Below are positions 4,478 to 13,188 of a DNA stretch of 64,000 nucleotides, piece after piece. Numbering within the stretch: the first letter of the stretch is position 1; the number at the start of each line of letters is the position of its first letter. A model generated the notes under the pieces. The model was not told the DNA's origin. It was given only the letters and a program-made list of their open reading frames with translations, and made no database searches. The translations under genes were made by a program, and so were the position numbers. Source of the stretch: Natronospira bacteriovora (GTDB lineage Bacteria > Pseudomonadota > Gammaproteobacteria > Natronospirales > Natronospiraceae); assembly GCF_030848495.1 (NCBI RefSeq), contig NZ_JAVDDT010000004.1, positions 62,001 to 126,000 of the forward strand. The letters run 5' to 3'.

Positions 4478-4515
4478 GCCCGCGCGGCCCCGACATCGGC
4501 ACAGCGTGGATCGCG

Positions 4516-4676
4516 GCCCCCTGTAGGCGCGGATTCATCCGCGCAATGGCTGGAATCCGACGTTAATGCCTTTCATGAGGTGCATCACGGATCGCAACGC
4601 CCCCATTAGAGAATCAAACGGCAGCCGGGATCATTGCGCGGATAATGGAACCTTCTTCCGCTGCCTACAGGGGGCG
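4516..4676. repeat. REP-like inverted pair between parB and atpI
   Basis: Two copies of a REP-like element face each other. The left arm (4516-4548) begins CCCCCTGTAGGC and contains GCGGATTCATCCGCG; the right arm (4632-4676) is its imperfect reverse complement, sharing CCCCCTGTAGGC and ATCCGCGCAATG. The element fills much of the 424-base gap between atpI and parB (4282-4705), which otherwise holds only the atp promoter and shows no convincing gene. Related units occur near 7.5, 10.4 and 11.5 kb. Confidence 0.8.
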
Positions 4677-4705
4677 TTCCGTCAACGGGGCACGGACGTT
4701 CGGAC

Positions 4706-5581
4706 TTATTTAATTCGGTCGAGGATGCCGTCCAGTTCGTCGAGGCTGTTGTAGCGGATGACCAGCTTGCCCTTGCCGCCGCGGCCGCTTTCCACGGCCA
4801 CACGGGCACCCAGGCGGTCGGTCAGATCCTGCTCCAGGCGTTCCAGATCGGGATCACGGCGGCGACCGTCCTGTTTCGGCTTGCTGGCTCCCTCGCTCTG
4901 CTGGCGGCGAACCAGTTTCTCGGTTTCGCGCACGGACAGATCGTTTGCCACCACCTTGTTCGCCAGCGCCACCTGCGCATGGCCCTTGATGGCCAGCAGG
5001 GCCCGGGCATGACCCATGTCCAGCTTCTTCTTCTCCACCAGCTCCCGCACATCCGGCTCCAGCTCCAGCAGACGCAGCAGGTTGGTCACGGCGGTGCGGG
5101 AGCGGCCGACGGCCTCGGCGGCGGCCTGGTGGGAAAGCTCGAATTCCTCGATCAGGCGGGCCAGGGCCTTGGCTTCCTCCAGGGCACTGAGGTTTTCGCG
5201 CTGGATGTTCTCGATCAGGGCCATGGCGATGGCGGCCTGATCCGGGATCTTGCGGATCACGGCGGGGACCTCGTGCAGACCGGCCTTCTGGGCCGCGCGC
5301 CAGCGCCGCTCGCCCGCGATCAGCTCGTAGCGACCGTCACCGATGGAACGCACCACCACCGGCTGCACCACCCCCTGGGAACGGATGGAATCGGCAAGTT
5401 CCTGCAGGGCCTGGGGATCCATGCCGGTACGCGGCTGGTAGCGGCCGGGCTGGATCAGATCCACCGGCAGGTCGCGCAGGGAGGCCTCGCCTTTCTCGAC
5501 GGCTTGTTCGGGGCTGTCTTCGGAGGAGCCGGCCAGCAGGGCGTCAAGACCCCGCCCCAGACCGCGTTTCTTGGCTGCCAT
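4706..5581 (-). CDS. parB: Chromosome partitioning protein ParB
   Basis: ParB is a CTP-dependent clamp that loads at parS sites near the origin and works with ParA to segregate the new origins. The N-terminal ParB domain shows QPGRYQPRTGMD (near 46-57) and the GERRWRAAQKAGL box (near 92-104); a helix-turn-helix region with AAAEAVGRSRTAVTNLLRL follows near 150-170, and the C-terminal part carries the dimerisation domain. I prefer the ATG at 5581 (MAAKKRGLGRGLDALL, 291 residues), which has an AGGA site six bases upstream; an ATG two codons earlier is possible. Its parS targets lie at 39.6-40.4 kb. It is separated from parA by an unusual 361-base spacer. Confidence 0.96.
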   Translation of the reverse strand: MAAKKRGLGRGLDALLAGSSEDSPEQAVEKGEASLRDLPVDLIQPGRYQPRTGMDPQALQELADSIRSQGVVQPVVVRSIGDGRYELIAGERRWRAAQKAGLHEVPAVIRKIPDQAAIAMALIENIQRENLSALEEAKALARLIEEFELSHQAAAEAVGRSRTAVTNLLRLLELEPDVRELVEKKKLDMGHARALLAIKGHAQVALANKVVANDLSVRETEKLVRRQQSEGASKPKQDGRRRDPDLERLEQDLTDRLGARVAVESGRGGKGKLVIRYNSLDELDGILDRIK

Positions 5582-5649
5582 GGTCATCCTGAATGCTGGG
5601 TAAATGGATAATGCCGCGGATTATAGCGCAGGCATCTAGGTTTCTGGGG

Positions 5650-5942
5650 TTCTCGCGCAGAGACGCCGAGACGCGGAGGCTTTGTGGGCCCTGCCGGGGC
5701 TGGCCGCCGTGCTACTCCGGAAGGGCCGTGCTGGCGCGGTGGCGGGATTTGCCTCGCGCCAAGGGCGCCAGGAGCGCGACGGAAACGCCAAAGAAATCAC
5801 ACTCATTGCGTCCTTGGCGCTCTCAGCGCGAGGCCCAGTCAAGGCCCGGGGTCGGCAACCATCCGCCCGAAGCAGTACGGCTGGCCAGGCGATGCACGGC
5901 CCCAGCAATCACTGCGTCTCAGCGTCTCTGCGCGAGAACACC
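5650..5942. repeat. Long nested imperfect inverted repeat between parA and parB
   Basis: Almost the whole parA-parB spacer is one large imperfect palindrome centred near 5797. The outer arms share TTCTCGCGCAGAGACGC at about 5650-5677 and, inverted, at 5913-5940. A middle block shares CTGGCC-GCCGT-CT-CT-CGG, and an inner block shares GCCTCGCGC followed by GCGCCA (5751-5771 against 5815-5834). The right arm ends directly at the parA stop codon. No open frame in it looks coding, and no transposase was found. It resembles a non-autonomous palindromic mobile unit or the remains of one. Confidence 0.8.
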
Positions 5943-6734
5943 TTAGCCAGCCGCCTGGGCCACGCGCGCTTTTTCTTCCCGGCGGAGCATTTCGCCGGCC
6001 AGGGCGAGATAGGCAAGGGCGCCACGGGAGTTCTTGTCATGCAGCAGGGCAGGCACGCCGTAGCTGGGGGCCTCGGCCAGGCGCACATTGCGGGGGATCA
6101 TGGTGCGATACACCTTGTCGCCGAAATGCACGATCAGCTGGGCGCTGACCTCGTTGGCCAGGTTGTTGCGCGGGTCGTACATGGTGCGCAGCAGACCGGC
6201 CACCTGCAGTTCCGGGTTCACGGCCTCGCGAATCTGCTCAATGGTGTTGAGCAGGGCGGACAGGCCCTCCAGGGCGTAGTACTCGCACTGCATGGGGATC
6301 AGGATGCCGTGGGCCGCGGCCAGGGCGTTCACGGTCAGCATGTTCAGGGAAGGCGGGCAGTCGATCAGGATGTAATCGTAATCATCCAGAACCGGTTCCA
6401 GGGCCTTGCGCAGCTTGGACTCGCGTCCGAAGGCCCGCATCAGCTTGACCTCGGCGGCGGTGAGATCGCCGTTTGCCGGCAGCACGTGGATGCCGCTGTC
6501 TTCCATGTGCTGGATGGCCTCCCGGGCATTGCACTCACCCAGGATCACATCGTAGGCGGACAGCTTGAGCTGATTCTTCTCGACACCGGAGCCCATGGTG
6601 GCGTTGCCCTGGGGGTCCATGTCCACCAGCAGCACGCGGCGCCGGGTGGCGGCCAGGGAGGCGGCCAGGTTGATGCAGGTGGTGGTCTTTCCGACCCCGC
6701 CCTTCTGGTTGGCAACGGCAATGATATTGGCCAT
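5943..6734 (-). CDS. parA: Chromosome partitioning ATPase ParA (Soj)
   Basis: ParA is a DNA-binding ATPase that forms the gradient along which ParB-parS complexes move. The 263-residue protein begins [19 protein letters not shown], so the deviant Walker A motif KGGVGKTT is at residues 11-18 with the signature lysine at position 11. The Walker B-like IDCPPSL segment follows near residue 124. It is nine bases downstream of rsmG and has the normal chromosomal Soj length without an N-terminal DNA-binding extension. The rsmG-parA-parB order is the conserved one. Confidence 0.97.
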
Positions 6735-7394: not shown

Positions 7395-7430
7395 CATCAC
7401 CCTCGGCTGGCACCAGGCACGTTTACCGCA

Positions 7431-7566
7431 CCGTGGGAGCGGATTTATCCGCGATTACAATCAATCGGTTGGCGCGCCACCCTCTATGGCCTCGCTGTGG
7501 GCGCGGCATCAAATAGCAGCATACCAACCGGAAGATTGTCATCGCGGATGAATCCGCTCCTACGGT
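7431..7566. repeat. REP-like inverted pair upstream of rsmG
   Basis: Two arms of about 40 bases (7431-7470 and 7526-7565) are inverted copies with about 85 percent identity by eye. They share GAGCGGATT-ATCCGCGAT and a GACAATC or TACAATC tail. They flank a loop of about 55 bases in the gap between rsmG and prpD. The core matches the unit at 4516-4548. Confidence 0.85.
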
Positions 7567-7575
7567 GGCATTAAA

Positions 7576-11545: not shown

Positions 11546-11755
11546 GGACATCGCTGTCGCAGTAAGTAGTTCGAAAAGAGCAGGATCCCGTCTGGTTTTC
11601 CCCTCCGATCGAAAGACCCTCTGCAGGATGCTGCCCGCCGGGATCAAGTCGCCCGCAGGCTGAAACTGCCCCCCAGGATCGGCATTTCAAGAACAGCATT
11701 AACGGAGTCCATGACGGGCTCGCTCAAAATCAAGTAGTTAAAGGTAGTAAGTAAC

Positions 11756-11959
11756 ATGCAAACCGGTACTGTTAAGTGGTTCAACGAATCCAAGGGTTTT
11801 GGCTTTATCGCTCCTGAAGATGGCGGCAAGGACGTTTTCGTCCATTTCTCCGGCATCGCCGGCGACGGCTTCAAGACCCTGGCCGAAGGCCAGCGCGTTC
11901 AGTTTGAGTCGAAAGAAGGCCCGAAGGGTCTCCAGGCTGTGGAAGTTTCCGCAATCTGA
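11756..11959 (+). CDS. Cold-shock protein, CspA family (copy 1)
   Basis: This is a 67-residue single-domain OB-fold protein that binds single-stranded RNA and DNA. The RNP1 motif KGFGFI and the RNP2 motif VFVHF are both present, starting [18 protein letters not shown]. It differs from the second copy at 13189-13392 by only four residues, all in the last third (S to T twice, and the final AI to PA). A perfect hairpin terminator follows at 12002. The specific csp number cannot be assigned from sequence. Confidence 0.97.
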
Positions 11960-12001
11960 AGTATCGACTCAGTCGCCCGCGCGGCACTGAATTCGATACG
12001 G

Positions 12002-12027
12002 AAAAGCCCCGCCTCGGCGGGGCTTTT
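12002..12027. terminator. Bidirectional terminator between cold-shock gene 1 and acuI
   Basis: AAAAGCCCCGCC pairs perfectly with GGCGGGGCTTTT around TC, with T runs on both sides. It can end the plus-strand cold-shock gene and the minus-strand acuI, which converge here. Its core is identical to the terminator at 13121-13148. Confidence 0.9.
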
Positions 12028-12053
12028 TCTTTTCCGGGGTTACGCATCTGCAC

Positions 12054-13046
<993 letters not shown>

Positions 13047-13120
13047 GGTCGTCTCTCCCTGCGGGGCTGAATGAACATCGAGGATCGGCATTGTGCCATG
13101 AGGCGGCATTGGGGGAAAAA

Positions 13121-13148
13121 GAAAGGCCCCGCCTCGGCGGGGCCTTTC
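13121..13148 (-). terminator. Terminator of cold-shock gene 2
   Basis: GAAAGGCCCCGCC pairs perfectly with GGCGGGGCCTTTC around TC, and a T-rich run (TTTCTTTTTC) follows on the minus strand. It starts 40 bases after the cold-shock stop. The distance and core copy the arrangement behind cold-shock gene 1. Confidence 0.9.
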
Positions 13149-13188
13149 CAGATCCGGTGTCGATCACTGCAGACCGACATCGGTGGCC

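Follow-up and report, generated by a model that had tools for sequence, protein, structure and literature searches.

The spacer that separates parA and parB in Natronospira bacteriovora, within a 64,000-nucleotide stretch of contig NZ_JAVDDT010000004.1 (positions 62,001 to 126,000 of the forward strand; hereafter the window, to whose first letter the positions given below refer unless a contig is named), is probably a decayed, non-autonomous MITE-like remnant of about 290 bp, made of nested layers and derived from a family of elements linked to GxxExxY genes that is distinct from the RAYT/REP system. A preliminary description of this DNA had listed a remnant of a transposable unit among the possible origins of the spacer. 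This origin is supported here, given that the arms of the palindrome recur in the genome and flank a candidate enzyme gene, and that sister loci are found in near-empty, full and deleted states. The spacer would itself be no more than a leftover, of interest mainly for the family to which it points.

The long nested palindrome that had been noticed between the two genes is real. It consists of three inverted blocks at 5650-5938, with 30/32 matched positions in the outer, 48/66 in the middle and 29/37 in the inner one (Table 1), and it does abut parA, its end being 4 bp from the stop codon of this gene. Scoring one half against the other gave a value of 89, while 500 random windows of 297 bp had a mean of -3.4 and a maximum of 35. 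Self-BLAST of the window detected three pairs of inverted repeats, as compared with zero in three block shuffles, and the sequence TTCTCGCGCAGAGACGC, located at 5650-5666 (+) and 5922-5938 (-), had only these two matches in the window when up to three mismatches were allowed.

Table 1. Coordinates of the parA-parB region and of the blocks that form the nested palindrome (positions in the window).
Feature	Position	Strand	Remarks
parB	4706..5587	-	88% identical to that of G002
Promoter-like block GCCTGCGCTATAATCCGC upstream of parB	5616..5633	-	Part of the 22/24 match between the two spacers; likewise precedes parB in G002
Outer arm (arm C), left	5650..5678	+	Short iterated units; shares 26/28 positions with the arm next to the C6 GxxExxY gene
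Middle block ("core" repeat), left copy	5685..5731	+	85% to the by-eye consensus, E 1.5e-8; aligned with nine genome copies
Inner arm, left	5751..5777	+	Inverted pair I2, 27 nt, 78%
Central loop of the nested palindrome	5778..5807		30 nt between the inner arms
Inner arm, right, inverted	5808..5834	-	Inverted pair I2
Middle block, right copy, inverted, more diverged	5867..5902	-	81%, E 8e-4
Outer arm (arm C), right, inverted	5909..5938	-	Inverted-pair and motif matches
parA	5943..6734	-	Found in 36/39 genomes searched

The two genes are usually close together, as had been assumed in the preliminary description: the gap is 355 bp here and ranges from -14 to 112 bp in the 27 loci outside the genus that could be used, the latter gaps being projected from the ParB alignment and none of the 27 loci belonging to the genus or the family of the window. 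For this comparison the best 30 loci were taken from the genomes in which ParA was found; 28 of them were outside the genus, and one (L054) was dropped because its ParA match was partial. In the congener G002, with a ParA 92.5% identical, the gap is 607 bp. No ParA or ParB match was found in the congeners G001 and G003, so that the comparison within the genus is with G002 alone. A spacer that was the same and non-palindromic in all relatives had been named as one of two outcomes that would speak against the preliminary description. Instead, the spacers of the relatives differ, and that of G002 is also palindromic.

The arms of the nested palindrome in the G002 spacer (GACGCAGAG..., followed by CACGGAG...) differ from those of the window and enclose a REP dimer; the outer arm is identical in 40/44 positions to the flank of the GxxExxY gene of G001 (score 34.0, with a background maximum of 19.5). 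A fourth, outermost layer suspected by eye in this spacer gave no score in the block-matching test. The best match between the spacers of the window and of G002 is a 24-nt stretch adjoining parB, identical in 22 positions and containing TATAAT; it scores 19.0, below the highest background value (19.5), and occupies an equivalent position upstream of parB in the two genomes. Since the scan of the spacer region called no full sigma-70 promoter, a private promoter of parB within the spacer is plausible only.

The preliminary description had suggested searching the genome for the arm sequence, and this search located the outer arm on contigs C1, C3, C4, C6 and C7; the second of the two outcomes named there, arms that occur nowhere else, is therefore not the case either. 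Its consensus is TCTCGCGCAGAGACGCNGAGACGCNGAG, and inverted pairs are present at C1:426126/426302, C3:178406/178569 and C6:36900/37368, along with copies that have no obvious partner at C4:260409 and C7:44703. The pair on C6 encloses a GxxExxY gene (TIGR04256, E 1e-39; PF13366 PDDEXK_3, E 3e-40). The second GxxExxY gene of the genome, on C13, lies between iterated arms of another type, GCCGCGAAATGCACGCNAAATGNACGC. These two genes were the only matches in the genome at E 0.001, and no GxxExxY remnant was found in the spacer or elsewhere in the window at the same threshold; the spacer can therefore only be a non-autonomous derivative. The middle block also recurs in the genome beside arms of this kind. 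Several multi-layer palindromes of the same nested build were detected at C6:80-108 kb and C4:250-268 kb in a scan whose motifs had been written by eye from some of those same loci, and the three nested elements inspected from these regions each contained a REP dimer. As a separate observation, part of the middle-block repeat occurs as tandem 19-bp copies at C5:156047-156112 of G000 (L026).

The spacer shows the traits that define MITEs, i.e. terminal inverted repeats, a size of about 50-500 bp and lack of an enzyme gene: it has ~290 bp and outer arms matched in 30/32 positions, and no GxxExxY gene was detected in it. As is usual in MITEs, its ends are shared with a gene-bearing element of the same genome, in this case the C6 element, with 26/28 positions in common, which would be its candidate autonomous relative. 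It differs from MITEs in that this gene-bearing relative encodes a PD-(D/E)XK protein instead of a known transposase and that its arms are made of iterated short units. A target-site duplication, another trait of MITEs, was not evident by eye at the sites compared, where the ends of the elements are not sharply defined. With respect to the GxxExxY-linked elements, the arms of the spacer are like those seen beside GxxExxY genes, and the spacer does not itself encode GxxExxY. Insertion polymorphism was observed for a related element in another genus and at one junction that differs between G003 and G000/G002; both cases are described below.

GxxExxY was found in 27/185 genomes of the class (E 1e-10) and in 55/299 genomes of the phylum sample (E 1e-20). 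Flank tests were done with the best-scoring loci only; 61 were taken and 58 were testable, with L203, L206 and L208 dropped because of contig ends. In 46 of these 58 loci, the inverted arms up- and downstream of the gene scored above every far-flank control. This was the case for 25/30 loci of the class set (27 controls, maximum 13.0) and for 21/28 loci of the phylum set (24 controls, maximum 13.5), which comes wholly from one family (f189) with near-identical loci and thus does not represent 28 independent cases. The near-identical loci inflate the cross-locus control of the phylum set (0/28 above its 99th percentile) and make it unusable, and the far-flank control was used in its place. In the class set, 18/30 arm pairs scored higher than 99% of the pairs made up of arms from different loci, which indicates that the two arms of one element tend to match each other. 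The units of the arms, as seen by eye, often read CRCRRA[G/T] and are spaced 1-3 nt. The remaining 12/58 loci, with no arms above the control, count against the proposed origin.

One arm pattern was present in 15/27 GxxExxY-positive genomes of the class and in 10/158 negative ones (Fisher p 6.5e-9, with GxxExxY defined at E 1e-10), and at least five matches to it were obtained in 11/27 and 6/158 genomes, respectively; the reversed control pattern gave matches in 0/185 class genomes. Two observations count against the proposed origin. There was no match to the pattern in 12/27 positive genomes, the window's own among them, and four of the ten negative genomes with the pattern (G142, G148, G149 and G099, with no GxxExxY match at E 1e-10) had 16 to 41 matches to it, for which loss of the gene, assembly gaps or another mover are candidate explanations. 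A search for the exact arm C pattern gave 114 stretches, with several phyla named in their titles; one deltaproteobacterial MAG accounts for 31 of these stretches. Among 117 exact copies of arm C in other genomes, 49 had an inverted partner at most 900 bp inward and 3 were at most 900 bp from GxxExxY, so that few copies have the gene at hand.

The states that a single junction can adopt were compared, by eye, at the site corresponding to the GxxExxY element L235 in 23 genomes of its genus. The full element was present in three (G375, G241, G221) and internally deleted copies in two (G315, G319), while three others (G215, G396, G304) had both arms without the gene; in G396 the left arm of G241 is kept and a second arm type is found inside. 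One clear arm was seen in four genomes (G300, G234, G351, G453), the junction was near-empty, with 11-35 bp, in nine, and an insert without visible arms was present in one (G331). In G414 the flanks were ~1.7 kb apart. As far as the sequences can tell, this junction is the step from a gene-bearing element to a short derivative, taken at a single place. No target-site duplication was evident by eye at the compared sites, and the ends of the elements are not sharply defined.

Among the congeners, at another junction (on C1) the genes overlap in G003, with no insert, and a palindrome is present in both G000 and G002, with an arm variant that differs between the two. The C6 GxxExxY element is absent from the matching junction in G002 and G003, which may be an empty site, with flanks that are only 66-72% alike. 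GxxExxY gave no match in G003, whose assembly is 83% complete. In G002 (L259) and G001 (L260) the single GxxExxY match of each genome has one internal stop codon and keeps the matching arms, and these genes look as if they were decaying.

These data would fit a scheme in which the outer ends of the spacer are members of a terminal inverted repeat family composed of a few short iterated units, and in which the gene-bearing members of this family carry the GxxExxY gene between those ends. The GxxExxY nuclease would recognise its own arms and move both the element and, in trans, gene-less derivatives of it; the nested layers would have arisen by insertion within earlier palindromes, and parB may now be read from its own promoter. 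We infer the role of the nuclease as mover of the repeats, and it could be cargo instead.

An origin of the palindrome as a REP/REPIN or TIR element of the ordinary type, mobilised by a RAYT (tyrosine transposase), is unlikely. The genome does contain one Y1_Tnp (PF01797) match and REP dimers, and such dimers lie within three of its nested elements and within the G002 spacer; PMC3733652 describes REP dimers in larger palindromes as well as RAYTs with long TIRs on either side. However, the flanks of the Y1_Tnp gene, on C5, contain REP dimers and lack arms A-D and the core, whereas those of the two GxxExxY genes contain arms A and C; here the closest REP is at a distance of about 0.8 to 1.1 kb, or the locus has none. 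This flank scan, together with the lack of any match to the REP motif at E 0.01 in the window's spacer, led us to disfavour a RAYT/REP origin of the spacer. The REP/REPIN-RAYT systems and the TIRtrons, as presented in PMC3733652, share with the GxxExxY-linked elements the intergenic palindromes, the presence of their repeat on both sides of a small enzyme gene and the palindromes within palindromes, there for REP dimers. They differ in the enzyme family and in the repeat, and the Y1_Tnp gene of this genome keeps its own REP dimers.

Replication template-switching keeps hairpin arms alike, in what is known as quasi-palindrome correction, and the arms could be such hairpins, with GxxExxY as passive cargo caught between them. 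We consider this quite unlikely. It would agree with the 18/30 arm pairs of the class set that match each other better than 99% of the cross pairs, and with the arms held by 10/158 genomes that have no GxxExxY match, but it leaves unexplained why GxxExxY is located between arms in many lineages and why the gene and the arms are associated across genomes.

The preliminary description had also proposed a folded RNA affecting parB translation, and it is very improbable that a selected structure of the parA-parB mRNA tunes the translation of parB or the stability of this transcript: parA and parB are co-directional and the spacer has a very stable fold when analyzed as RNA (-188 kcal/mol, z -8.45, for the + strand and -187.6 kcal/mol, z -10.58, for the - strand, with 0/100 shuffles as good), but this stability is nearly equal on both strands, the half-versus-half mismatches are not biased towards G-U pairs in the strand of the par mRNA (7 vs 5), the G002 spacer has almost nothing in common with this one except the promoter-like block proximal to parB, the same arms are present at unrelated junctions, and no Rfam family reached its gathering score in the spacer, the sole match in the window (cspA) being elsewhere. 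With respect to the remaining suggestion of the preliminary description, an invader that reads through, no terminator-like site was found at 5560-5960.

Returning to the remnant of a GxxExxY-linked element, the proteins of this family are annotated by name only. They have ~130 aa and a predicted PD-(D/E)XK nuclease fold. The structure was modelled for a relative from another genome (L106) with an alignment of four sequences (pLDDT 87). The matches of this model obtained with VIA-align were 4ic1 (SSO0001, Z 9.4), 3ijm (Z 9.2), 3s1s (BpuSI, Z 8.6), 1gef (Hjc, Z 7.1) and 2okf (Z 5.8), where values of Z under 8 may reflect a common arrangement alone and fold likeness shows no function. Foldseek gave no match to the model at E 0.001 or below, and the GxxExxY sequence had none among solved structures at E 1. 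The likeness to PD-(D/E)XK nucleases such as Hjc (1gef) or the fdxN element excision controlling factor (2okf) is thus one of predicted fold only. Residues D66, E76 and K78 are invariant in the four-sequence alignment, and we take them to be the catalytic ones, according to the PD-(D/E)XK fold family. GxxExxY was found in 8/72,556 plasmid records and in 0/50,697 phage records (both at E 1e-5), and, with a query that reaches close relatives only, in no confirmed viral contig. RAYTs have a chromosomal lifestyle, and the rarity of GxxExxY on plasmids and phages fits such a lifestyle better than that of a plasmid-hopping IS.

A broader proposal, whose chances we see as evenly balanced, is that GxxExxY proteins may be the enzymes of minimal mobile elements that extend across phyla and have not been recognised as such. 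Each element would consist of one PD-(D/E)XK gene of ~130 codons between inverted arms of iterated 8-10 bp units, and would seed the intergenic spaces of bacteria, operon junctions like that of parA and parB among them, with short derivatives nested one inside the other. The elements would parallel the RAYT/REP systems and be independent of them. Nested palindromes, MITEs and REPINs are already known (PMC10969869, PMC3733652). No paper tying GxxExxY to such repeats was found in the literature searched, which covers few subscription journals, and this link may be new. It would give a testable role to a family known by name only, and would explain how a conserved operon junction like parA-parB comes to be split. 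It would also offer a natural setting for asking whether a lone PD-(D/E)XK nuclease drives DNA mobility.

Other repeats and structured sequences were observed in the window outside the spacer. Positions 7429-7567 hold a self-complementary, REP-dimer-like sequence, both ends of which match the REP motif that flanks the Y1_Tnp gene of the genome. Downstream of parB, at 4510-4680, an inverted sequence looks REP-like by eye and gives no match to the REP motif. The cspA thermoregulator match of Rfam is located at 11664-12030, with a score of 78.3 for a gathering score of 78, and two similar hairpin sequences (12000-12035 and 13114-13149), 83% alike, lie in inverted orientation about 1.1 kb apart.
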